Positions 369 to 9,124 are shown, counted from the stretch's first letter. The stretch: 26,924 nt of DNA from a virus (IMGVR_UViG_3300005828_000091:1-26924), one strand, 5' to 3'. The notes: generated by a model from the sequence alone, not told the origin. Made by a program: numbers and translations.

Positions 369-381
369 AGTCAACAAATTC

Positions 382-408
382 GAAGCCCCTTAATTGGGGC
401 TTCTTTTT
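382..408 (+). terminator. Factor-independent terminator after the HTH-like gene
   Basis: GAAGCCCC (382-389) and GGGGCTTC (396-403) form a perfect 8-bp stem with loop TTAATT, followed by five T. It starts 14 bases after the stop codon and closes the first single-gene unit. Confidence 0.9.
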
Positions 409-657
409 GCGTGTTTTTTGCGCTTCTTTTTGGGCCCCGTGCTAGAAGATCGACACTTTTATTTTCGCGCCCTAAAACAGCGTGTGGCGCACGAGAAATA
501 TATGTTTAGCAGTTTCACTTAGTGCAATATGCGCATTCGAACCAGCGCTGATATAAGACGCTAAATTATTAAGCGATGAATGTATCGCTAACATTATTTG
601 GTGCTGATGGAGATGAATCTGGCACATCATTTATTTTCGGTTTTTTTGTGAAAAATG
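409..657. other. Gene-free stretch between the first two genes
   Basis: No convincing gene lies here. An open frame starting at 576 runs through the next promoter into the following gene, but its first 48 codons have no good SD and are best read as untranslated. Small inverted repeats such as GCGAT/ATCGC near 573-588 are visible, with no assignable role. Confidence 0.5.
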
Positions 658-685
658 TGTACTTTGGTATCAGACGTGGTAGAAT
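658..685 (+). promoter_or_regulatory. Promoter P2 (repeat copy 2)
   Basis: TGTACT (658-663), 16-base spacer, TAGAAT (680-685). The spacer and 5' leader closely resemble P3 (GGTATCAGA in the spacer, TTGTCAATCAA in the leader), so the two were duplicated as a block. Confidence 0.75.
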
Positions 686-719
686 AAGTATTGTCAATCA
701 AACAAACGAGGAAGTAGAC

Positions 720-938
720 ATGAGCACAACGATCAGAAGAGAAGTAGTAGGCAACCACGCACTCAGCCTGTTTGAAAACAGGATCTCTTTGTCTAAGAAC
801 GGCTTCATACAGAGTAGCGTTGTAGCTACTGATTATGACGCTGCACTCTCCAGACTACAGGAATGGTACGACGTTAATGGCGATGATTTCCTGGCCGATG
901 GGCGGTTTGTCGATTACGTTCTCTTTAACCGCAAATAA
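720..938 (+). CDS. Small hypothetical phage protein (72 aa)
   Basis: The 72-residue product (starts MSTTIRREVVGNHALS, ends DYVLFNRK) is soluble, with no Cys, no signal peptide and no membrane segment. I recognise no family. The start at 720 is chosen over an in-frame ATG at 576 because ACGAGGAAG lies about 5 bases upstream, and because promoter P2 lies between the two starts. The gene is preceded by P2 and followed within 4 bases by promoter P3, so it appears to be an independently transcribed early gene. Confidence 0.7.
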   Translation: MSTTIRREVVGNHALSLFENRISLSKNGFIQSSVVATDYDAALSRLQEWYDVNGDDFLADGRFVDYVLFNRK

Positions 939-941
939 ACG

Positions 942-969
942 TGCACTCTGGTATCAGATGCAGTAGAAT
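942..969 (+). promoter_or_regulatory. Promoter P3 (repeat copy 3)
   Basis: TGCACT (942-947), 16-base spacer, TAGAAT (964-969). It starts 4 bases after the previous stop codon. Spacer and leader match P2 closely. Confidence 0.75.
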
Positions 970-1002
970 AGATCTTGTCAATCAACGAAAGAGGTAATAA
1001 AC

Positions 1003-1452
1003 ATGAAAGCGTCAGTAAATTGGATGGAAGGATGGGCAAATCCGCCTAAGCTCGAAATTCACCTGGATAGGTATCCAGAGTCAGGTCAGTTTGTTTATGA
1101 GGAGACGCAAGGATGTTATTTCGCCGTCGACCAGGAGACCGGAGTGGTTCGCTACTTCTACTACGAACGCCCAGGCCGAGGTTATGGAGGTCGTACATTC
1201 GATCTGAAAATGAAGGATGGATCGACAAGGAGTCTGATCGGTCCATGGTCATCCAGGTGTCAGTGTATGAATGAAGTCGGTTTTCCTCACTCAGTAGAAT
1301 GCGTTATTATAACTGAAGATGGATGTAACTACGCCGGAGCGCTTCTGATCGATGTAGCGAAGGAGTATCTACGAGCCGCAGAAGGTGACGCAGCTGAGTT
1401 CGTCTTTGATTCGAAGGAGAATGAATACACGATCCAAAGAATACAACCGTAG
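1003..1452 (+). CDS. Hypothetical phage protein (149 aa)
   Basis: The 149-residue protein is rich in aromatic residues (YFYYERPGRGYGG around 51-63) and has five Cys: 38, 86, 88, 100 and 108. There is no signal peptide or membrane helix. The start is supported by GAAAGAGG about 8 bases upstream and by P3. I do not recognise a family; the mixed beta-type sequence suggests a compact globular domain. It is the third gene of the promoter-repeat series and ends about 35 bases before a large perfect hairpin at 1488-1527. Confidence 0.65.
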   Translation: MKASVNWMEGWANPPKLEIHLDRYPESGQFVYEETQGCYFAVDQETGVVRYFYYERPGRGYGGRTFDLKMKDGSTRSLIGPWSSRCQCMNEVGFPHSVECVIITEDGCNYAGALLIDVAKEYLRAAEGDAAEFVFDSKENEYTIQRIQP

Positions 1453-1487
1453 GCGTACTACAGGAGGTGCTAGGTAGATAGTAGATG

Positions 1488-1527
1488 AAGTGTCTGATCA
1501 GATAAAGGATGATCTGATCAGACACTT
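1488..1527. other. Perfect 16-bp inverted repeat
   Basis: AAGTGTCTGATCAGAT (1488-1503) pairs with ATCTGATCAGACACTT (1512-1527) around an 8-base loop. Each arm contains the 8-bp palindrome CTGATCAG. No T-tract follows on the + strand (ACTCCGG), so it is not a standard intrinsic terminator for the preceding gene. It could be an RNA stability element, a transcript processing site or a protein-binding palindrome pair. Confidence 0.75.
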
Positions 1528-1638
1528 ACTCCGGCCCGGTGTCCAGACGGAGGCCGATGTGCCGCAGACCGGAGGCCAGAGACCGAAGAAAAGAATCAGA
1601 AAAAATAATGAAAATAAATCACACTTCTCCGGCCGGTG

Positions 1639-1647
1639 TGTTATAAT
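1639..1647 (+). promoter_or_regulatory. Extended -10 promoter for the membrane micropeptide
   Basis: TGTTATAAT: a consensus -10 TATAAT (1642-1647) with an upstream TG (1639-1640). No good -35 is visible at 17 bases, which fits an extended -10 promoter. The expected start is near 1654, 23 bases before the ATG. Confidence 0.6.
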
Positions 1648-1676
1648 TACTCTGTAACTAACACACGAGGTGTATC

Positions 1677-1775
1677 ATGAAAGTACTTAAGCTCGCAGTC
1701 ATCTTCGCTCTGTTCTATTATGGATTCGCATTCTTTGCTGTTCTCGAAGCAGGTTTGAGAGCGATCGGAAAATAA
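1677..1775 (+). CDS. 32-residue single-span membrane micropeptide
   Basis: The frame encodes 32 residues: a basic start (MKVLK), then about 19 hydrophobic residues (LAVIFALFYYGFAFFAVL), then EAGLRAIGK. This is one predicted transmembrane helix with a short basic tail, and no cleavage site is evident. ACGAGGTG lies 5-6 bases before the ATG and a consensus extended -10 promoter is upstream, so expression signals are good for so short a frame. Possible roles include host membrane targeting during infection or exclusion; none can be shown from sequence. Confidence 0.6.
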   Translation: MKVLKLAVIFALFYYGFAFFAVLEAGLRAIGK

Positions 1776-1794
1776 TCGTTTATCATTCAACGAT

Positions 1795-1828
1795 CCTCGA
1801 GCCGACATCTGCTTGAGTCGGCTCGAGG
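1795..1828. other. Hairpin at the convergent gene boundary
   Basis: CCTCGAGCCGAC (1795-1806) and GTCGGCTCGAGG (1817-1828) form a perfect 12-bp GC-rich stem with a 10-base loop. It lies between the end of the + strand unit and the end of the long - strand cluster. Neither strand has a T-tract after it, so it may block or stabilise transcripts from both sides without being a classical terminator. Confidence 0.6.
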
Positions 1829-1886
1829 GGGTGGAATTGGGGCCCCTGATCCCGTGGCTGCTAGTGGCCTAGCGCCGAGGAATTTT

Positions 1887-1945
1887 GGACAAAGTACGAA
1901 GTCATTACGCGTATTAAAATCCAGGACAAAGTACGAAGTCATTAC
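1887..1945. repeat. 22-bp direct repeat, two copies 37 bp apart
   Basis: A 22-base unit (begins GGACAAAGTACGAAG, ends TCATTAC) occurs exactly at 1887-1908 and 1924-1945, separated by 15 bases. The period is not a multiple of three and the unit is read in two different frames by the only overlapping ORF, so it is not a coding repeat. It may be a pair of protein-binding sites or a replication or recombination site. Confidence 0.8.
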
Positions 1946-1965
1946 ACATAGCTCAAGCTCAGTCC

Positions 1966-2181
1966 TCAATACATTCTCACTCCATGATTAGGATCATTGA
2001 CCCAATAAACCCTCATGCCGTAGTACGTCGGCCCCTCGCCTGCACTCTGATAACGAGGTTGTATAGACCTGTGAAAATCGCGCCATTCGTCCGGGCCTAA
2101 ATACAACACCTCTGGTCGCTTATCGATATCTAATATAAACGCGTAATATAATGTTGCTATTCGTTCTTCAATCTCAGACAT
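1966..2181 (-). CDS. Small hypothetical protein, last gene of the - strand cluster (71 aa)
   Basis: The 71-residue acidic/aromatic protein (MSEIEERIATLYYAF..., ending NDPNHGVRMY) has no Cys, membrane segment or recognisable domain. An SD (GGAGAAAGGTGGAG) lies upstream of the ATG at 2181. It is the promoter-distal gene of the leftward cluster; only the direct repeat and the hairpin lie beyond it before the convergent + strand unit. Confidence 0.6.
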   Translation of the reverse strand: MSEIEERIATLYYAFILDIDKRPEVLYLGPDEWRDFHRSIQPRYQSAGEGPTYYGMRVYWVNDPNHGVRMY

Positions 2182-2230
2182 AGCGCTCCACCTTTCTCCG
2201 TAATAAGTTCATGTTGTAAAGTAACAACAA

Positions 2231-2446
2231 TTAATAAAACGACTTATACATCGTTTCAGCGGCGGGTCGGCACTTGAGTATCATGCCGTTTTCTTCGACC
2301 GCTAGACCGTATCGACGTAAATCCATGCGTATTATAGGGCCGATCGGCTCCCAATCGCTATCGAACACACCCACTGGTACTCCACCGGTTCGTTCTAAAT
2401 AGTCGACGTATTTTTGTAAAAACTCTGTATTGTGGTTAACTGACAT
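2231..2446 (-). CDS. Small hypothetical protein (71 aa)
   Basis: The 71-residue product begins MSVNHNTEFLQKYVDYLERTG, an amphipathic helix, followed by a probable small beta region (VGVFDSDWEPIGPIIRMDL). The SD TCCGGAGGAA lies about 5 bases before the ATG and is very strong. No family recognised. A 49-base gap to the next gene contains a short inverted repeat (GTTGT/ACAAC). Confidence 0.65.
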   Translation of the reverse strand: MSVNHNTEFLQKYVDYLERTGGVPVGVFDSDWEPIGPIIRMDLRRYGLAVEENGMILKCRPAAETMYKSFY

Positions 2447-2520
2447 GCTTATTCCTCCGGAAATTTTATAATCAGGTTTAAGTTAATTACGCGTTATTTA
2501 GGTATAGTCGAGATATCATT

Positions 2521-2739
2521 TTATACGCAGTCGATCATGCCACGACAACAAACATAGTCCGCCGGCACGACTCGCCAATAGTGGGGTCCTGTGTCTGTCG
2601 CAACTAATTCATTTATCAGGTCTGCTATCTTCTGCGCCTTTTCCTCGGGTAAGTAACCCACGGTGTTGACTTCGATTTCTGGCTGACAATCGCGATTAAA
2701 GTTGTCGACGCAAATAATTTTATATGCTTTACTACTCAT
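2521..2739 (-). CDS. Conserved-type phage protein (72 aa)
   Basis: The layout 'YKIICVDNFNRD - acidic beta strand - LPEEKAQKIADLINE - YWRVVPADYVC' resembles a short protein often met in phage accessory clusters, with a beta strand, an alpha helix carrying an EEKA..IAD.LNE pattern, and a final RVVP.DY strand. Its function is unknown to me. Cys at 10, 18, 64, 65 and 70. The start at 2739 is preceded by an AGAGGATACGCAACC leader, a moderate SD. The family resemblance is from memory and unverified. Confidence 0.65.
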   Translation of the reverse strand: MSSKAYKIICVDNFNRDCQPEIEVNTVGYLPEEKAQKIADLINELVATDTGPHYWRVVPADYVCCRGMIDCV

Positions 2740-2760
2740 GGTTGCGTATCCTCTATGAAT

Positions 2761-3093
2761 TCATTCATTTTTAGACCATGTTTTTCCGCAGTCTGGGCAT
2801 TCGTATGCATAAGTCATATCTTTTTCTAAGCTATATAGCCCAATCTTTCGTGAAGCGTGTGTAGCGCCAAATGACGCTTGTAACTGTTCTGGAATAGGTT
2901 CGCCCTGTAAATCGGCCCCACAATATGGGCAAGTTTCTGTTTGTTCGGGGGGCCATTGTTGTTCCCCACATCGCATGCAAGCAGTTATATTGTACTGATT
3001 GGTTTCAACGCGATGTCCGAGTATCTTGCATACCCATACTCGCAGGCGTAGCCAGTTGTTTGCGCTCCAACATTGGCTTTGATATTTCATCAT
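2761..3093 (-). CDS. Zinc-ribbon protein, DUF1660-like N-terminus (110 aa)
   Basis: The 110-residue protein has three CxxC knuckles: C39-x2-C42 (CMRCG), C55-x2-C58 (CPYCG) and C99-x2-C102 (CPDCG). The first two probably form one zinc ribbon; the third has no visible partner pair, unless the protein dimerises or C8/C22 contribute. The segment VCKILGHRVE near 21-30 resembles the 'C+.fGH' start of DUF1660 prophage proteins. It starts at tandem ATGATG (3093 and 3090). The spacing from the AGGAG favours the second ATG. It overlaps the upstream 55-residue gene by ATGA. Likely role: nucleic-acid or protein binding; unproven. Confidence 0.7.
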   Translation of the reverse strand: MMKYQSQCWSANNWLRLRVWVCKILGHRVETNQYNITACMRCGEQQWPPEQTETCPYCGADLQGEPIPEQLQASFGATHASRKIGLYSLEKDMTYAYECPDCGKTWSKNE

Positions 3094-3257
3094 TCTCTCC
3101 TGTCGTTATCTGTAGCCCATTCGGTGTAAATACGTTCGCCGGTAACTGAATCCTCCCATGCAATATTGATGCCATCGTCGTTTTTAATACCGTCACATCT
3201 ATGCCCTTGCAATTGAGCGTGTTCAAATAGCCATTTGTCTAGTTCTTCACTCATCAT
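3090..3257 (-). CDS. Small acidic hypothetical protein (55 aa)
   Basis: This short gene lies between two obvious ones and fills an otherwise empty gap. It encodes 55 residues, MMSEELDKWLFEHAQ... to ...IYTEWATDNDRRE, acidic, with one Cys at 21. It has the same CAGGAGAGAATGATG translation start as its neighbours, and its TGA overlaps the ATGATG of the next gene. Translational coupling on both sides supports it strongly despite its size. The mid-section 'DDGINIAWEDSVTGERIYTEW' looks like a beta hairpin. No family recognised. Confidence 0.7.
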   Translation of the reverse strand: MMSEELDKWLFEHAQLQGHRCDGIKNDDGINIAWEDSVTGERIYTEWATDNDRRE

Positions 3258-3290
3258 TCTCTCCTGTTTGGGTGTTCATACAGGTTTAGC
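3252..3290 (-). repeat. Intergenic cassette, copy d (with 10-codon ORF)
   Basis: The mini-ORF MNTQTGENDE starts at 3279 and ends with TGA at 3249-3247, just inside the downstream 55-residue gene. The DNA upstream (CTAAACCTGTATGAACACCC) differs from copies a-c by only a few bases. Confidence 0.75.
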
Positions 3291-3296
3291 CGCTAA

Positions 3297-3494
3297 TCAC
3301 TCATACCCTTTCGTTGGTGATAATGGCCCGATCGACCGAGTCCATTGCTTGTTCCCATCTTCATCGATGACGGTTTCTAGGTTCCCGATAATTGGGTCGC
3401 ATTGGGCTGCTTGCCTAAACTTCTTTTTGCAATTGTCGCATTTTTCTTTTGGCTCCCAGTTCTGGTGTCCGCAGCGTACGCATATTTTCATCAT
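3297..3494 (-). CDS. Small zinc-ribbon protein (65 aa)
   Basis: The 65-residue product begins MMKICVRCGH. C5-x2-C8 and C19-x2-C22 make a compact N-terminal zinc ribbon, followed by a basic KKKFRQ and an unstructured-looking tail. It starts in tandem ATGATG (3494/3491) after GGGGAG and overlaps the upstream gene's TGA. Likely binds one zinc and a nucleic acid or protein partner. It is one of several Cys-rich micro-proteins in this block that share the same initiation region. Confidence 0.7.
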   Translation of the reverse strand: MMKICVRCGHQNWEPKEKCDNCKKKFRQAAQCDPIIGNLETVIDEDGNKQWTRSIGPLSPTKGYE

Positions 3495-3691
3495 TCTCCC
3501 CTGTTTGGGTGTTTCTGTTGAAAATGATCCTCAAGACCGAAGTCACATTCAGGGTTGCTGCACCATTCATCACCAACCGCATTTCCAAATAATTGCGCTC
3601 TGCATTTCGGGCATCGCTTTTCAATGAGGTCGCCAACTAAATTCTCAAATAGTTGTTCGTGTTTTTCTTCTAGCTCTGATCTATCCATCAT
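3491..3691 (-). CDS. Small zinc-ribbon protein (66 aa)
   Basis: An N-terminal charged helix (SELEEKHEQLFENLV) is followed by C27-x2-C30 and C44-x4-C49, a plausible zinc-ribbon arrangement with spacing differing from its neighbour. The C-terminus (QKHPNRGE) is encoded within the recurrent intergenic cassette itself, so here the cassette has been absorbed into the reading frame. Starts at tandem ATGATG after CAGGAGGA. Exact function unknown. Confidence 0.7.
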   Translation of the reverse strand: MMDRSELEEKHEQLFENLVGDLIEKRCPKCRAQLFGNAVGDEWCSNPECDFGLEDHFQQKHPNRGE

Positions 3692-3727
3692 TCCTCCTGA
3701 CTATCTGGGGTGTTCATATAGGTTTAA
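3686..3727 (-). repeat. Intergenic cassette, copy b (with 9-codon ORF)
   Basis: Nearly identical to copy a. The mini-ORF MNTPDSQEE starts at 3717 and ends with TGA at 3690-3688, inside the ATGATG of the 66-residue zinc-ribbon gene. Confidence 0.75.
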
Positions 3728-3972
3728 CGACTAAGCGCCGCTCTTGCGCGCTCAATGATTCCAGGCACTTCTTCTGTGCGTGGATCGCTACCTCGATCTA
3801 ATATCGCGCAGGCTTCAGCGTGCATCCACCCAATTGCAACATACCGTTCTTGTTCAATGTAATGCTCTAGCGCGATGCAGGTTGTGCTGGCTGGGGGAAT
3901 GCCACTCGGGTCTGAGCTATCAAGCAGTTGTGAAATAATTTCATATATTTTGGTTCTATCTTTATTCATCAT
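3724..3972 (-). CDS. Small helical hypothetical protein (82 aa)
   Basis: The 82-residue, mostly helical protein contains ALEHYIEQERYVAIGWMHAEA and ends IIERARAALSR. Two Cys (32 and 56) are far apart, so no zinc site is apparent. It starts at tandem ATGATG (3972/3969) following CAGGAGAGA. A cassette copy with a tiny ORF lies on each side. The central 'E.YVAIGWMHAEAC..LD.G.DPR' has the feel of conserved phage proteins, but I cannot name a family. Confidence 0.65.
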   Translation of the reverse strand: MMNKDRTKIYEIISQLLDSSDPSGIPPASTTCIALEHYIEQERYVAIGWMHAEACAILDRGSDPRTEEVPGIIERARAALSR

Positions 3973-4003
3973 TCTCTCCTGTTTGGGTGTTCATATAGTG
4001 TTA
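3967..4003 (-). repeat. Intergenic cassette, copy c (with 10-codon ORF)
   Basis: The mini-ORF MNTQTGENDE (ATG at 3994) shares its ATG with the TGA of the upstream Cys-rich gene and runs across the tandem ATGATG of the downstream gene, ending in TAA at 3964-3962. Copy d encodes the same ten residues. Confidence 0.75.
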
Positions 4004-4230
4004 ATCTTCAGTCCGCAATCACCTTCATCTGTCGGCACCATTGGATTCAAACTGCTCCCGTTTTCGTGCACCCACGCTGTATTCCACATCATACAGGCAG
4101 ATCCGATGCAAAGCGTGCCTGATTGCGGATGGCCATCCTTAGTCCGATTATTGCCGTGTTCGTCTTCGTAATCACCACAAGCACGGACCATTGGGCACCA
4201 CTTCGTTCTTGCTTCTGATTCTTTCATCAT
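3991..4230 (-). CDS. Cys-rich hypothetical protein (79 aa)
   Basis: The 79-residue product has five Cys (12, 18, 41, 46, 72) in the layout WCP..R.ACGD - CIGSACMMW - EGDCGL. This 'CP - C.GS.CM.W - G.CG' pattern is familiar from small phage proteins of unknown function and suggests a metal (Zn or Fe-S) site using four or five Cys. The CAGGAGGA SD sits just before tandem ATGATG (4230/4227). Its TGA at 3991-3993 overlaps the ATG of the tiny cassette ORF at 3994. Confidence 0.7.
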   Translation of the reverse strand: MMKESEARTKWCPMVRACGDYEDEHGNNRTKDGHPQSGTLCIGSACMMWNTAWVHENGSSLNPMVPTDEGDCGLKINTI

Positions 4231-4239
4231 TCCTCCTGT

Positions 4240-4527
4240 TTATTGGTCATCACCGAATATCTCAACGTCTAAAATCATCTCGTCTATATTACGAACAAAC
4301 CCGACTTTCGCTCGGTTGCTGAAATAATGCTCGTAATAACTGGCCGTTGAAACTATCTCACCATCATCACCAATACCAAGACATTTAACTGTTTTGCTGC
4401 GCTCAGTGCGGGCTATTACGACCCAGAAGCAAGGCGAGTTATTGCCGCCTCGCGCTGCGTACATATCACCGACGTGAACCCCGCCGCAGTATTTATCTAG
4501 TACTTGTTGCTCTATATTAAATCTCAC
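4240..4527 (-). CDS. Hypothetical phage protein (95 aa), GTG start
   Basis: I place the start at a GTG (4525-4527) because TTGGAGGTGGAAA stands directly before it (GGAGGT about 5 bases away). A longer version from 4566 would lie inside the upstream gene with no SD. The 95 residues include 'GGVHVGDMYAARGGNNSPCFWVVIART..KTVKCLGIGDDGEIVST.SY', a small beta-rich domain reminiscent of short phage proteins that handle or cap a ligand; no function known to me. It overlaps the upstream stop by 11 bases, a sign of translational coupling. Confidence 0.65.
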   Translation of the reverse strand: MRFNIEQQVLDKYCGGVHVGDMYAARGGNNSPCFWVVIARTERSKTVKCLGIGDDGEIVSTASYYEHYFSNRAKVGFVRNIDEMILDVEIFGDDQ

Positions 4528-5281
4528 TTTCCACCTCCAATGCTTTTGCCGCTGAGACGCAGGCATCTAAATCAATGCGAGCTAATTTCGACAGATTGAA
4601 ATCGCCTTTGATGTTATCGTGATGCATTTCCATAATGTTAATAATCATCCGCGAATTATGTTTCCGCAGCCCCGCAATCTCAGCTTCCAAGGCTTCGATT
4701 CTCTGCGCTAACTCGCTGTCGGATGCATCAACATTCCCAAGTTTGCAATTTACCGCATAAATCCTCGACTCTTGTAATTCTTCTTTCAGCCCCGCAATCT
4801 CAGCTTCCAGCTCGGCCACCTTGGCGCGCAATTGTTCTTTTTCCTCGACGCACATTTCGCGCTCTACCCAGTTGCATAAAACACAGCCTTGGCGCGCTCG
4901 AATGTCAGCTTCTAGCAAACCAACCTTGGCGCGGAGAGATTCGATCTCTCTGGCTTTGTTACCAAGCACCTTGTGATACGAGGTTTTAAATACTTTCATC
5001 ACGCGAATTGCTCTTTCCAGATCGGCAACTTTGGCGCGGAGGGATTCGATTTCATCGAATAGCCGCAGCTCTATTTCGTGGCTTCCCTTCATAGACTCTA
5101 TAAGTCCATTTTTTAATTCCTGAATCAGTTTGGCGTCGGCATCGAGTTGAATATCAGTTAATTCTTTGTCGTAACCGAACACCAGTCCCTCGCCGTTATT
5201 GTGCCTATACTGTCGTATAGCAAGATTTTTGAACCGACGAGTAGGGTTATCACCCTTGTCGTTTGTGTCAGTGGTCATCAT
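4517..5281 (-). CDS. Long coiled-coil protein with repeated heptads (254 aa)
   Basis: The 254-residue protein is almost entirely coiled coil from about residue 45 to 225. A heptad unit recurs: SLRAKVADLE, SLRAKVGLLE, QLRAKVAELE, then EAEIAGLKEE and EAEIAGLRKH. The DNA repeats too (a 23-bp exact repeat at 4667-4689 and 4787-4809, 120 bp apart), so the array grew by duplication. A CNWVEREMC segment near the middle interrupts the coil. It starts at tandem ATGATG (5281/5278) after CAGGAGGA, preceded by a cassette copy. A structural or scaffold-like dimer or trimer is the safest reading; target unknown. Confidence 0.65.
   Translation of the reverse strand: MMTTDTNDKGDNPTRRFKNLAIRQYRHNNGEGLVFGYDKELTDIQLDADAKLIQELKNGLIESMKGSHEIELRLFDEIESLRAKVADLERAIRVMKVFKTSYHKVLGNKAREIESLRAKVGLLEADIRARQGCVLCNWVEREMCVEEKEQLRAKVAELEAEIAGLKEELQESRIYAVNCKLGNVDASDSELAQRIEALEAEIAGLRKHNSRMIINIMEMHHDNIKGDFNLSKLARIDLDACVSAAKALEVESEI
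4667..5055. repeat. Diverged coding repeats in the coiled-coil gene
   Basis: A 23-bp exact repeat (begins CAGCCCCGCAATCTCAG) at 4667-4689 and 4787-4809 encodes EAEIAGL. A second unit containing ACCTTGGCGCG or ACTTTGGCGCG (encoding LRAKV) occurs near 4817, 4922 and 5028. A further copy lies in another gene at 7361-7395. Confidence 0.75.
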
Positions 5282-5318
5282 TCCTCCTGTCTATCTGGGG
5301 TGGTCATATAGGTTTAGC
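5276..5318 (-). repeat. Intergenic cassette, copy a (with 9-codon ORF)
   Basis: On the - strand the unit reads GCTAAACCTATATGACCACC, then CCAGATAGACAGGAGGAATGATG. It encodes the mini-ORF MTTPDRQEE (ATG at 5307, TGA at 5280-5278), whose stop overlaps the tandem start of the 254-residue gene. Related copies are at 3686-3727, 3967-4003 and 3252-3290, with partial ones at 3489-3516, 4225-4240 and 3088-3107. Confidence 0.75.
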
Positions 5319-5333
5319 CTTCAAATCACTCAG

Positions 5334-5759
5334 TTACCCAATCATGTCGCGAATTTTCATTTCCAGGTTGTTTTGCATTTGATACATGTCCTGCGAAAAA
5401 ATACTTTCCATTGCGTGCATGACGGCAAACAGCAGCCCTTTGTCCAGTGTCTTTCTAACCTCTGCGAGAACCTCGTCATTGTTTTCGGCAATCCAGTTTT
5501 TGACAGCACCTCTTACAATGGGGTTAATCGCGTCATTGAGCAGTTCATGCAAAAGGGGTGGTTGATGCTTTGGCTCACGACCTCCATAACCAGTACCGGC
5601 ACCCTCAATAATTCGTGGTTTCAAAAGCATATCGTCAATGGCTTTATCAACCAAAGGTTTCAAATCCTCCTCGGTGATTAAGTCTCCGATACTTTCTATT
5701 ATTTTCTCGGAAACCCTCTCTTGTACGGTTTTTTGCTTTTCAATTTTCGTAGCTGTCAT
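5334..5759 (-). CDS. Helical hypothetical phage protein (141 aa)
   Basis: The start at 5759 is set by a strong AAGGAGGTAGAGAC leader; the longer frame to 5828 lacks an SD and overlaps the neighbour. The 141-residue protein is helical and charged (N-terminal ERVSEKIIESIGDLITEEDLKPLVDKAID, C-terminal MQNNLEMKIRDMIG), with a Gly/Pro-rich linker (GAGTGYGGREPKHQPPLL) at about 54-71. No Cys or membrane segment. The 'I.E.GTGYGG' linker followed by a helical domain occurs in conserved phage hypotheticals, but I have no function for it. Confidence 0.65.
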   Translation of the reverse strand: MTATKIEKQKTVQERVSEKIIESIGDLITEEDLKPLVDKAIDDMLLKPRIIEGAGTGYGGREPKHQPPLLHELLNDAINPIVRGAVKNWIAENNDEVLAEVRKTLDKGLLFAVMHAMESIFSQDMYQMQNNLEMKIRDMIG

Positions 5760-5790
5760 GTCTCTACCTCCTTCGGGTTTCGGTTGTATT

Positions 5791-6063
5791 TTATCGAGCG
5801 GAGAAAGGGTTTTTCCCTCGATGTGCATTTAGTTTCCCTGGCGACCAGTCCCATTGTTTTGCCTTGCTTCCTAACCGAAGCACCTCGCGAAAGTCTTCCT
5901 TTACAGTTTCTAAATTCACCCAGTCGCCACGACATAAGCGCTTGGCGATCGACTCCAACCTTTCGGCGTATTCCGCCAAGGTCTCGGACTGCTCTGACGT
6001 AGCCTTTTCGGGGTCATACCCTTGCATTACAGTCACCCATAATTTCCCATTCTCCGCAACCAT
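5791..6063 (-). CDS. Hypothetical phage protein (90 aa)
   Basis: The 90-residue, mostly helical protein (EQSETLAEYAERLESIAKRLC) ends in a basic tail, WSPGKLNAHRGKNPFSAR. It starts three bases after the TGA of the upstream paralogue gene. The SD is weak (AAGG about 15 bases away), suggesting translation by re-initiation. Family not recognised. Confidence 0.6.
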   Translation of the reverse strand: MVAENGKLWVTVMQGYDPEKATSEQSETLAEYAERLESIAKRLCRGDWVNLETVKEDFREVLRLGSKAKQWDWSPGKLNAHRGKNPFSAR

Positions 6064-6066
6064 TGA

Positions 6067-6414
6067 TCATTTCGGGTGCCTTGCGTTGTAGGCGTCGAGG
6101 GCGTCCGCGAGAACCACCCATTCCCGCCCAGCTATCTGAGCTTTAACAAACTTTATGGCCTCCACCAAATCCGCTACAGCAGGGCCGTGCTCGGGTTGGG
6201 TCTGCGCACGATAATTTATATATTTCATACAATCATTGGCGCGAACCGTTAGGCAGCTACCCTCTTTATATAGATCAACCAGCAACTCCCCCTCCGCAAA
6301 CTCGATAGCAGGGGCGGACAGGGCTTTAATCAACTGCTCGCGCTGGTCATTGTATATCCCGATCTTCTTGGCTTTCGCTGCAATTTCAACCAACTGATCT
6401 TCAGTAAAATTCAT
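6067..6414 (-). CDS. Paralogue A of a duplicated phage protein (115 aa)
   Basis: The 115-residue protein shares its C-terminal half with the product of 7573-7959: QTQ.EHGPAVADLVEA near the middle and ALDAYNARHPK at the end. A shared central EFAEGE motif is also present. The N-terminal thirds are only loosely alike (helical, EDQLVEIAAKAK versus EEHLEAIRQVY). The DNA of the shared block is nearly identical, including 36 identical bases at 6158-6193 and 7685-7720, so duplication or gene conversion is recent. It overlaps the end of the upstream Ala-rich gene by 14 bases. Function unknown. Confidence 0.7.
   Translation of the reverse strand: MNFTEDQLVEIAAKAKKIGIYNDQREQLIKALSAPAIEFAEGELLVDLYKEGSCLTVRANDCMKYINYRAQTQPEHGPAVADLVEAIKFVKAQIAGREWVVLADALDAYNARHPK
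6158..6193. repeat. 36-bp exact repeat, copy 1 (paralogue A)
   Basis: The block begins GCCTCCACCAAATCCGC and ends GGCCGTGCTCG. It is identical to 7685-7720 and encodes the EHGPAVADLVEA segment in both paralogues. Confidence 0.85.
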
Positions 6415-7024
6415 TTATCATCCCACCATATAATGTAAAGTGTTTGCGGTATAAGGATTCGATTTCTTCCCATTTGGGTTTCCTCGCGGCATAGGTGGCG
6501 ACGGCATAGAGAGCATTGGCGACGGCATAGGCAGCATCGGTGGCGGCATCGGCAGCCTTGGCAACGGCAGCGGCAGCGGCAGCGGCATTGGCGACGGCAG
6601 CGGCGGCATAGGCGGCGGCATCTACATCAGCGGCGGCAGCAGCGGCGGCATCGGCAGCCTTCTTTAACTGCTCAGCCGTGGCGACGCCTGCGTGATAATC
6701 GCGGATTGTTTGAATTGCGTCGCGCGGCGCTGTGCTATCACCTACAACCTCGTATATTGGTAAAACACTTTCCACAATATCGGCGAGGAAAAGACAGTAA
6801 TTGCGATAGTCCTGAGTACGCAGACACCAGATAGCATCCTCGATACCGACAGCATCCAGCAGCGTGATAAAATCTAGCGGCTCATCATCGCCGTTGGTTT
6901 TACCGAGATATGACAGCAGTTTTTCCCAGCCAGGTTTACAGGGGCGGTATTCTCGGATTTTATTCAGTGTTGTTTCCATGCCTATAGTTCCCACCATTCG
7001 ATAAACTTCACTTTCCACATCCAA
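6401..7024 (-). CDS. Ala-rich protein, Imm5-like (up to 207 aa)
   Basis: The N-terminal part (about 1-110) contains VGIEDAIWCLRTQDYRNYCLFLADIVESVLPIYE, then PRDAIQTIRDYHAGVATAEQL. After it comes about 70 residues of Ala/Asp/Val/Tyr repeats, and a C-terminal KWEEIESLYRKHF. This order (a helical 'edAiwcLR - CLFLA.. - AI..IR.Y..G' module plus an AAxxAAA array) is that of Imm5-like putative immunity proteins and related phage hypotheticals, as I know them. The frame opens with TTG at 7024. GTG 7018 and ATG 6997 are alternative starts, and no SD is decisive. The GC-rich repetitive array is prone to length change. Confidence 0.65.
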   Translation of the reverse strand: MDVESEVYRMVGTIGMETTLNKIREYRPCKPGWEKLLSYLGKTNGDDEPLDFITLLDAVGIEDAIWCLRTQDYRNYCLFLADIVESVLPIYEVVGDSTAPRDAIQTIRDYHAGVATAEQLKKAADAAAAAAADVDAAAYAAAAVANAAAAAAAVAKAADAATDAAYAVANALYAVATYAARKPKWEEIESLYRKHFTLYGGMINEFY

Positions 7025-7094
7025 TAACCAGTAAATTAATCCCGATCATCATTAGACTAATCAGGACAATGATTGATAGGAATACGATACTCAC
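7008..7094 (-). CDS. 28-residue membrane micropeptide, GTG start
   Basis: A short frame opens at GTG (7094) four bases after the upstream TGA, behind TTGGGTGA. It encodes 28 residues: MSIVFLSIIVLISL, then MMIGINLLVIGCGK. This is one strongly hydrophobic span ending in a Cys and a Lys. It fills the 73-base gap and overlaps the start of the Ala-rich gene. The uninterrupted hydrophobic composition argues against chance; the GTG start and small size argue for caution. Confidence 0.45.
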   Translation of the reverse strand: MSIVFLSIIVLISLMMIGINLLVIGCGK

Positions 7095-7097
7095 GAG

Positions 7098-7289
7098 TCA
7101 CCCAACTGTGTCGGGCGCTGTTATTTTGTCGTCGGGGATAAACTGACGGCTATCACCAAGTCGCTCGATCACTTCATCCTTGCGCTTGAGTTCGGCGATA
7201 AGGTTTCGAATAATGGTTCGCGCTTTTACAGGATGTGCCCAATCTAGTGAGGCTGTTGCTTGTGCAATCAATTCATCGTGCTTATTCAT
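7098..7289 (-). CDS. Small hypothetical protein (63 aa)
   Basis: The start at 7289 (MNKHDELIAQATASL) is chosen over the frame extension to 7334 because it makes an ATGA overlap with the upstream stop and an AGGAAACCAA leader lies before it. The 63-residue helical, charged protein (TIIRNLIAELKRKDEVIERLGD) is likely a short coiled coil. No family recognised. Confidence 0.65.
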   Translation of the reverse strand: MNKHDELIAQATASLDWAHPVKARTIIRNLIAELKRKDEVIERLGDSRQFIPDDKITAPDTVG

Positions 7290-7573
7290 TTGGTTTCCTC
7301 GGCTGCTTTTAGTTTCCGCAGTGCTTTCATCCATTCACATTTCAGCTCGGCATTATCTTCCTCCAGCTCGGCAACCTTGGCGCGCAGGGATTCATTGCTT
7401 ATTTGCAAATCAACTAGAGCTTTTAGTGGCCCTTTAGTGGTCACTTGCGGTAATAATTCATTCAGCTCAGCGATCCGCTTGACGTCAGCTTCTAACTTTT
7501 TACAGTTAAAACAATAAGTTTTTGAGCGCATTGATGGGTCAGCAATCCAGTCTAGTTCTTCGTCATTGGTCAT
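7286..7573 (-). CDS. Coiled-coil protein with CxxC (95 aa)
   Basis: The frame opens at a GTG (7576) followed directly by ATG (7573). AGGAGGAC is 6-7 bases from the ATG, which I take as the start. The 95-residue protein has one CxxC (YCFNCKKLE, residues about 21-24) and a long coiled coil containing SLRAKVAELEEDNAELK, the same heptad unit that is repeated in the 254-residue protein 2 kb away, with matching DNA (7361-7395). The two may co-assemble. Coupled by TGATG to the upstream paralogue B. Confidence 0.65.
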   Translation of the reverse strand: MTNDEELDWIADPSMRSKTYCFNCKKLEADVKRIAELNELLPQVTTKGPLKALVDLQISNESLRAKVAELEEDNAELKCEWMKALRKLKAAEETK

Positions 7574-7959
7574 CACTTGTCCTCCTTCGGGTGCCTCGCG
7601 TTGTAGGCGTCAAGGGCTTTCTTGATCCGATGATAGGCGAGCAAGCTATTGCATCCTGCTATCATGTCTTTCGCGTACTCGGCAGCCTCCACCAAATCCG
7701 CTACAGCAGGGCCGTGCTCGCGCTGTGTTTGTGGGCGGCGATGCCCTGTTGAGCATACGTGTGGCCCTGATTGGTCAGGTCCCCAGCGATACAAATCTGA
7801 ACCACCGTGTAAGTACTGGAAGGCATAAACTTCCCCCTCCGCAAACTCGACATCGAGGCGGGCGAGTTCGTTTATAAGTTCGTCTTCTGACAGTCTGCCA
7901 TGATTCGGCTTGTCACGGTATACTTGCCGTATCGCCTCTAAATGTTCTTCGCTAAACAT
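7573..7959 (-). CDS. Paralogue B, first full gene of the leftward cluster (128 aa)
   Basis: The C-terminal half matches paralogue A (6067-6414), ending ALDAYNARHPKEDK. The N-terminus differs (FSEEHLEAIRQVYRDKPNHGR), and the middle has an extra W/H/C-containing insert (RWGPDQSGPHVCSTGHRR) absent from A. I choose ATG 7959 over 7971 because no SD precedes 7971, while a leader ORF with a good SD (7991-7959) ends in TGATG and would feed ribosomes directly to 7959. Function unknown; being first after the promoter, it should be among the most expressed of the block. Confidence 0.7.
   Translation of the reverse strand: MFSEEHLEAIRQVYRDKPNHGRLSEDELINELARLDVEFAEGEVYAFQYLHGGSDLYRWGPDQSGPHVCSTGHRRPQTQREHGPAVADLVEAAEYAKDMIAGCNSLLAYHRIKKALDAYNARHPKEDK
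7685..7720. repeat. 36-bp exact repeat, copy 2 (paralogue B)
   Basis: Identical to 6158-6193, about 1.5 kb away in the same orientation, within the first gene of the leftward cluster. Confidence 0.85.
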
Positions 7960-7991
7960 CACAGCCACCATATTTTTATAAATGTACCCAT
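7959..7991 (-). CDS. Putative 10-residue leader peptide
   Basis: ATG at 7991 follows GGAG (8001-7998) by 6 bases and opens the frame MGTFIKIWWL, ending in a TGA that shares its A with the ATG of paralogue B (TGATG). It is the first start codon on the transcript from the promoter at 8016-8044. It may set translation of the first gene. The two adjacent Trp invite comparison with attenuator peptides, but no attenuator hairpin is visible. Confidence 0.35.
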   Translation of the reverse strand: MGTFIKIWWL

Positions 7992-8015
7992 CACTTTCTC
8001 CAAATAACTATATCT

Positions 8016-8044
8016 ATTATATCTACATATATTACACCTGTAAA
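8016..8044 (-). promoter_or_regulatory. Promoter for the leftward cluster
   Basis: On the - strand: TTTACA (8044-8039), 17-base spacer, perfect TATAAT (8021-8016). The expected start is near 8009, about 18 bases before the leader ORF. Confidence 0.85.
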
Positions 8045-8075
8045 TGTATATACACATAGTTCCAAGAATTCAATA

Positions 8076-8103
8076 TGTACATTTATTTGTCTACAAGTAC
8101 AAT
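8076..8103 (+). promoter_or_regulatory. Promoter P4 for the basic-protein gene
   Basis: TGTACA (8076-8081), 16-base spacer, TACAAT (8098-8103), the same architecture as P1-P3. The sequence is nearly symmetric: on the - strand TTGTAC (8102-8097) and TACATA (8079-8074) are also 17 bases apart, so it could fire both ways. Confidence 0.65.
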
Positions 8104-8136
8104 ATACTCTTTATTATATACGTAGGTGCGTACGTT

Positions 8137-8286
8137 ATGACTATTCGTAAAGTTAAAGGACCTCGAGGTGGCACACAGTATCAACTGGTATCTAAAAGCG
8201 GTAAAGTTTTAGGTAAAGGCTATACTAGAGCCGCCATGGAAAAACGTGAGAAGCAGGTAAATTATTTCAAACACAAAAATAAATAA
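8137..8286 (+). CDS. Small basic phage protein (49 aa)
   Basis: The start is placed at 8137 (MTIRKVKGPRGG) behind GTAGGTG; the longer in-frame extension to 8044 would begin upstream of promoter P4. The 49 residues are very basic, with a beta-hairpin-like core (TQYQLVSKSGKVLGKGYTRAAMEKREKQVNYFKH). Short 'Y.LvSksGkVLG...tr..AekrEkqv' proteins are common near phage terminase genes and are usually annotated as hypothetical. Nucleic-acid binding is an inference from charge. Transcribed from P4, divergent from the leftward cluster. Confidence 0.7.
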   Translation: MTIRKVKGPRGGTQYQLVSKSGKVLGKGYTRAAMEKREKQVNYFKHKNK

Positions 8287-8302
8287 GATCCAAGTATTTA
8301 CT

Positions 8303-8333
8303 AGTTTACACCGTAAACTGTCTGTAGTATAGT
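8303..8333 (+). promoter_or_regulatory. Promoter P5 with operator-like inverted repeat
   Basis: TTTACA (8305-8310), 17-base spacer, TATAGT (8328-8333). The -35 lies inside a perfect 7-bp inverted repeat, AGTTTAC (8303-8309) / GTAAACT (8313-8319) with a 3-base centre, a natural place for a repressor to bind. It drives the secreted-protein gene. Confidence 0.75.
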
Positions 8334-8383
8334 ATATATCTGATATAGTAATAGTGCTATATCTAAACGAGTAGGAGGTGTTA

Positions 8384-8713
8384 ATGAAATATATTTACGC
8401 TTTTCTGCTTTCATTAGTTGTAATGTGTCCGACATTTGCTGTGGAGTACGATTCTGGTGTAATAAAAGTACCAGTTTCGGTACATGATCCCGGTGCCGTA
8501 ATATGTTCGGTAGATATGCTATCGAATCAGGCTAGTCAAGCCGTAGACACATATAAACTTTTGCAAGTAGCTTCTACAGTCGAGCCCTGGTATTTCGCCG
8601 CCGCCGTCGATGCGGTGCTGATGACCGATATGACTGTTAACTCCTGGATATCGCCGCTGGCCGAAAGAGCCAAAGAACATGAGCGATGTCGATGCTCACT
8701 GACAGTCGTATAA
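8384..8713 (+). CDS. Secreted/periplasmic small protein, moron-like (109 aa)
   Basis: AGGAGG 5 bases upstream fixes the start at 8384. Residues 1-21 form a classical signal peptide: basic n-region MKY, hydrophobic core IYAFLLSLVVMCP, and a cleavage site after TFA. The mature protein of about 88 residues is mixed, with Cys in ICSV and in CRCS near the C-terminus that could form disulfides in the periplasm. No family is recognised. The gene has its own promoter (P5) and its own terminator (8756-8783), the hallmark of a phage moron. Superinfection exclusion or host-surface change is a reasonable but unproven role. Confidence 0.7.
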   Translation: MKYIYAFLLSLVVMCPTFAVEYDSGVIKVPVSVHDPGAVICSVDMLSNQASQAVDTYKLLQVASTVEPWYFAAAVDAVLMTDMTVNSWISPLAERAKEHERCRCSLTVV

Positions 8714-8755
8714 ATTAGGCGACACCCATAGAAGCCAAGCTCTTAATTGAGTTCT

Positions 8756-8783
8756 AAGGGCCGGAGATCTCCGGCCCTTTTTT
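8756..8783 (+). terminator. Terminator after the secreted-protein gene
   Basis: AAGGGCCGGA (8756-8765) and TCCGGCCCTT (8770-8779) form a perfect 10-bp GC-rich stem with loop GATC, running into TTTTTT. It isolates the secreted-protein unit from the terminase operon. Confidence 0.95.
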
Positions 8784-8800
8784 ATTAGTTCAAAAAATTG

Positions 8801-8829
8801 TTTACAAAGGTTTTTGAGCTATGTACAAT
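8801..8829 (+). promoter_or_regulatory. Late-operon promoter P6
   Basis: TTTACA (8801-8806), exact 17-base spacer, TACAAT (8824-8829). The expected start is at about 8836, immediately before the small-terminase ATG at 8837. Confidence 0.8.
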
Positions 8830-8836
8830 CTATCCC

Positions 8837-9124
8837 ATGAGTGAATCCAGAACAAATACAGCCTTATTAAGCATGTTACAGGCCAAATTCCCCAACTACC
8901 ATCCGCTAATCGCGATGGCTGAGATGGCCCATGACAATTCTGTAGAAGACGGTATCAAATTGAACTGCCATAAGGAAATTGCCAAGTATATTGAACCCCA
9001 ACTTAAAGCAGTAGAGCACCGTGGTACGGTGAAAGCTGATTTTGGAACTCTTCGAGTCGTTCCAGCTCAATTACCAAATCCGGTGGATACAAATGGAGCT
9101 GCCGCTTCATCCGAAGCAGCTTAA
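8837..9124 (+). CDS. terS: Terminase small subunit (putative)
   Basis: The 95-residue protein lies directly before the large terminase. The core 'NYHPLIAMAEMAHD - ED.IKLNCHKEIAKYIEPQLKAVEHRG' resembles short small-terminase-like proteins in which a helical 'HP...MA.mA.d....' unit and 'H+EIAkYi.PqLKAv' precede a beta tail. It would bind the packaging site and recruit TerL. Start ATG 8837: the frame extends upstream only through the promoter to TTG 8798. No SD is present and the ATG coincides with the predicted transcript start, so translation may be leaderless. The end overlaps terL by 32 bases. Confidence 0.65.
   Translation: MSESRTNTALLSMLQAKFPNYHPLIAMAEMAHDNSVEDGIKLNCHKEIAKYIEPQLKAVEHRGTVKADFGTLRVVPAQLPNPVDTNGAAASSEAA

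Follow-up and report, generated by a model that had tools for sequence, protein, structure and literature searches.

The window analysed here, 26,924 nt long, is an entire IMG/VR record from an uncultured phage (IMGVR_UViG_3300005828_000091), and it carries on its minus strand a run of eight consecutive genes, seven of which share a tandem start codon, ATGATG, preceded by a common repeat of the form CAGG(A/G)G-(G/AG)A-ATGATG (Table 1). The copies are ~15-41 nt long, all lie on the minus strand and each ends at a gene start, where the letters just before ATGATG are CAGGAGGA, CAGGAGAGA or CAGGGGAGA. Four of the seven starts have a longer unit, opening with TAAACC-TATATGAACACCC or a close variant and measuring ~37-41 nt through the end of ATGATG. 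An earlier note on this DNA had described such a recurring unit at seven junctions, together with its positions and the small peptides that it encodes, and every one of these details was verified.

The copies fall into two classes that are interleaved along the cluster. Class A (5281, 4230, 3691) reads AGGAGGA-ATGATG and class B (3972, 3494, 3257, 3093) reads AGGAGAGA- or GGGGAGA-ATGATG; where the part between ACACCC and ATG exists, the classes differ there by 4 nt in length. The partial copy at 3489..3514 also codes, in a different frame, for the C-terminal end of the upstream gene product; the stop of that gene falls at +1 (ATGA).

Table 1. Genes of the cluster, copies of the repeat unit, small open reading frames (mini-ORFs) and the surrounding expansion. 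Offsets of mini-ORF stops are counted from the first ATG of ATGATG.
Feature	Coordinates	Strand	Remarks
Gene starts carrying the unit	5281, 4230, 3972, 3691, 3494, 3257, 3093	-	7 of 8 consecutive genes; exception 4527
Coiled-coil protein, 254 aa	4517..5281	-	unit before start
phrog_23156 gene	4240..4527	-	inside cluster, without unit; GTG start; 11-nt overlap with upstream gene
Orphan, 79 aa	3991..4230	-	unit before start
Orphan, 82 aa	3724..3972	-	unit before start
Orphan, 66 aa, cysteine pairs (CPKC)	3491..3691	-	unit before start
Zinc-ribbon-like, 65 aa	3297..3494	-	unit before start
Orphan, 55 aa	3090..3257	-	unit before start
Zinc-ribbon-like, 110 aa	2761..3093	-	unit before start
Full unit, class A	5276..5316	-	TAAACCTATATGACCACCCCAGATAGACAGGAGGAATGATG
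Core only, class A	4225..4239	-	ACAGGAGGAATGATG; stop of upstream gene at -12
Full unit, class B	3967..4003	-	TAACACTATATGAACACCCAAACAGGAGAGAATGATG; TGA of upstream gene inside unit, overlapping mini-ORF ATG (ATGA)
Full unit, class A	3686..3726	-	TAAACCTATATGAACACCCCAGATAGTCAGGAGGAATGATG; upstream gene stops on TAA of unit
Partial unit, class B	3489..3514	-	AAACACCCAAACAGGGGAGA; most of unit minus TATATG part, without mini-ORF ATG
Full unit, class B	3252..3288	-	TAAACCTGTATGAACACCCAAACAGGAGAGAATGATG
Core only, class B	3088..3103	-	ACAGGAGAGAATGATG; stop of upstream gene at +1 (ATGA)
Mini-ORF MTTPDRQEE	5278..5307	-	stop +1, ATGA overlap with gene start
Mini-ORF MNTQTGENDE	3962..3994	-	stop +8, supplied by downstream gene
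Mini-ORF MNTPDSQEE	3688..3717	-	stop +1
Mini-ORF MNTQTGENDE	3247..3279	-	stop +8, supplied by downstream gene
Lineage-specific expansion holding the cluster	369..8797		8,429 nt between conserved genes 33-368 and 8798-9124

The similarity of the copies lies far beyond chance expectation. At junctions 3972 and 3257, 30 nt match exactly, and several other pairs share 14-18 nt, whereas in ~5,000 random pairings of 69-nt segments from the same strand an exact match never exceeded 13 nt. The tandem ATGATG present at all seven unit starts occurs at only 57 of 910 (6%) Shine-Dalgarno (SD)-supported ATG open reading frames in the other loci fetched for comparison, and it is absent from the other listed minus-strand gene starts of the window. 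At all seven gene starts the predicted duplex with the anti-SD sequence is strong (-7.4 to -10.3 kcal/mol), and the spacing from the SD sequence to the second ATG is 4 nt in class A and 6 nt in class B. The full units also hold a stop codon in each of the three frames. Other kinds of signal were not apparent: RNA folding of the seven junctions gave nothing unusual (z -0.63 to +1.16), there was no match to an Rfam family or a tRNA, and a promoter and terminator scan of the region yielded no excess over shuffled sequences.

What follows the repeat differs from junction to junction. Homology among the junctions stops exactly at the start codon, and when all proteins of the region were compared with each other by BLASTP the sole match within the cluster was a 20-residue zinc-ribbon stretch common to 3297-3494 and 2761-3093 (E 1e-4). 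Given this edge and the unrelatedness of the proteins, tandem duplication of whole genes is not the general cause of the repeat; the earlier note had named such duplication among the findings that would undo its proposal, and this one weak pair is all that was found of it in the cluster. Searches with PADLOC and NCBIfam returned coiled-coil and zinc-ribbon background only. Outside the cluster, in the same variable region, the genes 6067-6414 and 7573-7971 are paralogues (43% identity over 100 residues, E 1e-18) that both end in LDAYNARHPK and share exact stretches of DNA. The region also contains GC-rich short-period repeats (6492-6656), coding for an alanine-rich stretch of gene 6401-7024, and to the left of the cluster the stretches 1488-1527 and 1887-1945 hold a 16-nt inverted repeat (AAGTGTCTGATCAGAT) and a direct repeat (GGACAAAGTACGAAGTCATTAC) whose two copies lie 37 nt apart.

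This phage is an Xp15-like siphovirus, though a distant one, whose portal protein shows 43.6% identity with its counterpart in Xanthomonas phage Xp15 and as much as 56% with those of relatives in IMG/VR. Eight relatives (L004, L008, L009, L013, L015, L018, L021 and Xp15) have both of the conserved genes that flank the expansion, the first of them inverted in several; there the two genes lie ~0.5-4 kb apart, as opposed to 8,429 nt here, and the region between them has other content. None of 18 minus-strand proteins tested from the expansion had a match in the 147 fetched loci. The wide gap and the unmatched proteins together place the cluster within a lineage-specific region of gene gain. I found no relatives of genes 4240-4527 and 3991-4230 in IMG/VR, and a TBLASTN search of ten joined proteins against INPHARED gave only weak matches in Burkholderia phages, to gene 4240-4527.

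The unit itself is phage-specific. Three specific patterns of it had no match in IMG/VR; the loosest had 62 single matches there, as against ~56 expected by chance, and in GTDB genomes there were 12 single matches as against ~9, with no stretch in either collection holding two (I worked out both chance figures roughly, on assumed sizes of the collections). When two units were compared with INPHARED by BLASTN, only short, chance-level matches came back. The search of phage collections suggested in the earlier note thus recovered no occurrence above chance outside the window, within what the searches return, from which near-identical records may be missing.

Start repeats of other sequence do exist in other phages. 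When 45-mers near gene starts were scanned de novo, repeats unrelated to the window unit emerged in Xp15 and in three fetched loci, L018, L028 and L054, which suggests that such repeats have arisen repeatedly. The most telling parallel is L018, a relative with a start repeat of its own in the same place: at 4650-5017 a ~70-nt, near-identical leader runs up to the ATG of two unrelated small genes, with a partial third copy near 5313, and all of this lies in the 4-kb gap between the same flanking genes, that is, in the homologous variable region, although the sequence differs from that of the window unit. In Xp15 (NC_007024.1) the repeat TTCAGAGCGCACCGGAGAGCA occurs at 29527-, 37297-, 45355- and 55627+, with at most 3 mismatches in 23 nt; one copy stands directly before the annotated start of gp34, and the record does not mark the sequence as a repeat. 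In L054 the start repeat CAAGCCATGATCTAARAGGGGCAACAATCAAAACAGGAGTCG stands before three genes on the minus strand (1548, 2123, 3348) and is preceded by a TTGACAA box, so that it is perhaps a promoter plus a ribosome-binding site. Two further candidates were rejected as parallels. The repeated start of L015 stems from an ordinary duplication, in which coding sequence is repeated as well. In L101 (G001:C1:35962-37492, minus strand) nine copies of GCGGGGTCGGCGACACC, with up to 2 mismatches, occur within 1.5 kb, several in the 3' terminal part of a gene, shortly ahead of the start that follows, and others within coding frames, and the latter mark it as a different kind of repeat.

The explanation I favour, with a probability of roughly 0.6, is that the unit is a start-associated repeat, a translation-initiation region copied ahead of small accessory genes that are unrelated to each other, and that it is probably a trace of repeated gene gain. 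Phages acquire small accessory genes very rapidly, and a copied start unit before each newcomer would be a simple answer to the problem of expressing gained genes immediately. The unit would be a ready-made initiation region, composed of a spacer with stop codons, a strong SD sequence and a tandem start codon, and each gene would receive the same strong site, with a presumed effect on its translation. Initiation would probably proceed from the second ATG of ATGATG, and stops in three frames would make the upstream gene terminate no later than the next start. The short repeats may in addition provide homology by which small genes are gained, lost or exchanged, and the unit may have spread by recombination. 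Some points weigh against this explanation. Three-frame stops also occur in ~11% of random 41-mers from the window and so are no evidence by themselves. Moreover, since IMG/VR, GTDB genomes and INPHARED yielded no second genome with the unit, both conservation by selection and movement between genes are conjectural, and recent copying alone would give the same picture.

The mini-ORFs invite other explanations. Four of the seven copies, the full units, contain one of 9-10 codons, its stop overlapping or near the next start. That the peptides are functional products is scarcely credible: MNTQTGENDE does occur twice, but the two copies are identical in their DNA as well, the two substitutions that separate the class A copies are both non-synonymous, the 4-nt difference between the classes shifts the frame of their mini-ORFs with respect to the gene, and at 3494 the upstream gene runs through the copy in a different frame. 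The mini-ORF ATG also has no SD sequence (anti-SD duplex +0.7 to -3.3 kcal/mol), and this, the differing frames and the residue-changing substitutions make it unlikely that the encoded peptide matters or is what has been conserved. Most likely the mini-ORF is a by-product of the unit's sequence or an optional ribosome relay. A relay as the unit's true purpose is possible, though I am doubtful of it: in a natural bicistronic arrangement, ribosomes from the upstream gene would restart on the mini-ORF, read its codons across the SD sequence and end at the next start, bridging junctions too wide for direct coupling. The distant upstream stops (-55, -35, -42 and -21) coincide with the four mini-ORF junctions and no others, whereas the three without have theirs at -12, +1 and +1, and once mini-ORFs are counted all seven starts have a stop within -12 to +8; in six gene pairs from E. 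coli and Haloferax, ~20 nt nearly abolished termination-reinitiation coupling (PMC10666635), which agrees with a need for such a bridge. It is suggestive, too, that both class B mini-ORFs take their +8 stop from the downstream gene, a feature of 96 of 910 (10.5%) background open reading frames and so expected for both with a chance of ~1%, by a post hoc calculation. At four of the seven junctions the upstream stop lies inside the repeat, as the TAA at 3691, as a TGA on the mini-ORF ATG at 3972 and as a TGA in ATGATG at 3494 and 3093, and stop and mini-ORF start are close together at 3972, where they overlap (ATGA), and at 3691, where 6 nt separate them. However, the distance is 17 nt at 3257 and 26 nt at 5281, so that only two of four mini-ORF starts have such a stop no more than 6 nt away, the mini-ORF is without an SD sequence, and the gene starts have strong SD sequences of their own and no inhibitory structure, and therefore do not need coupling. 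The portable initiation and coupling module of the earlier note accordingly survives as an initiation region that precedes unrelated small genes where genes have been gained, but translation of the mini-ORF and its coupling of the genes are doubtful, given the missing SD sequence and the distances just described. As no relative with the cassette was found, the idea in the earlier note that cassettes mark boundaries of gene gain and loss could be approached only indirectly. It is rather unlikely that the unit is a frame-independent "translation adaptor", which would halt the upstream gene in any frame and pass the ribosome on, either straight to the following gene or by way of the mini-ORF, letting small accessory genes join in any order yet stay expressed, with the repeats as exchange sites.

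Two alternatives set translation aside. The repeated leader might be a regulatory target, bound by a protein of the phage or host or by a small RNA that controls the seven genes jointly, and the conservation upstream of the SD sequence (TAAACCTATATGAACACCC) does exceed what anti-SD pairing needs, as it does in the start-associated sequences (SAS) of other phages (PMC3203893). I nevertheless consider this unlikely: the junctions showed neither structure nor an Rfam match, promoter-like sites were no more frequent than in shuffled sequence, and the upstream half of the unit is missing or cut at three of the seven junctions. Alternatively, the units could be the 5' ends of ancestral paralogues whose bodies were later replaced, and both the true paralogue pair elsewhere in the region and the short zinc-ribbon stretch within the cluster lend this some plausibility. 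It is improbable all the same, as the homology does not extend past the start codon and the remaining proteins of the cluster are unrelated. A copied initiation region remains the explanation that I prefer.

Start repeats of this kind have already been described in a few other phages, and the window unit is a variant of them. SAS are known from Cluster K mycobacteriophages and from cluster EF phages of Microbacterium (PMC3203893, PMC7302621). Like the window unit, they are short, phage-specific repeats in nearly always one orientation, located at the position of the ribosome-binding site before genes of different families and conserved better than anti-SD pairing needs; they have no known function. 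The attributes of a SAS that concern position (several copies, one orientation, start codons of different gene families) were found here. Conservation at the same genes across related phages is a further SAS attribute, and for the genes of the cluster no relative was found. SAS, however, are 13 nt long and spread over the genome, whereas the window unit reaches 41 nt, is clustered at seven of eight adjacent genes and brings with it stop codons, a mini-ORF and the tandem ATG, and the sequences are unrelated. The window core, ACAGGAGRRATGATG, does not match the consensus of Cluster K (GGGATAGGAGCCC) or EF (GGGAAAGGACCCC), and the unit is therefore SAS-like rather than a Cluster K or EF SAS. The extended SAS (ESAS) of Cluster K further differ in having 17-bp imperfect inverted repeats upstream of the SAS; none of this type is visible in the unit sequences, and the folding of the junctions is not unusual. 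The stem-loop cassettes of T4-type early promoters may be a further comparison.

Outside phages, the mycobacterial interspersed repetitive unit (MIRU; PMC12548453) is likewise an intergenic repeat with a small ORF coupled to the start of the next gene, but it is bacterial, apparently mobile and coupled at -4 nt, whereas the window unit lies in a phage, varies in length, has mini-ORFs ending at +1 or +8 and is of unproven mobility. ORF-11 of attI1 in class 1 integrons (PMC8876359) is also a tiny ORF before a changing gene, with its stop supplied from downstream as in class B. It has, however, its own SD sequence and serves genes that lack one, the reverse of what is found here; no integron recombination site was noticed in the window, where no search for one was made. 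Engineered bicistronic leaders are themselves efficiently initiated. These bicistronic designs of synthetic biology resemble the window unit in that a short first cistron delivers ribosomes to a second start (PMC5995908, PMC12548453), the difference being that the window mini-ORF has no SD sequence. The start unit would offer a natural counterpart to such leaders, as well as a search signal for islands of accessory genes.

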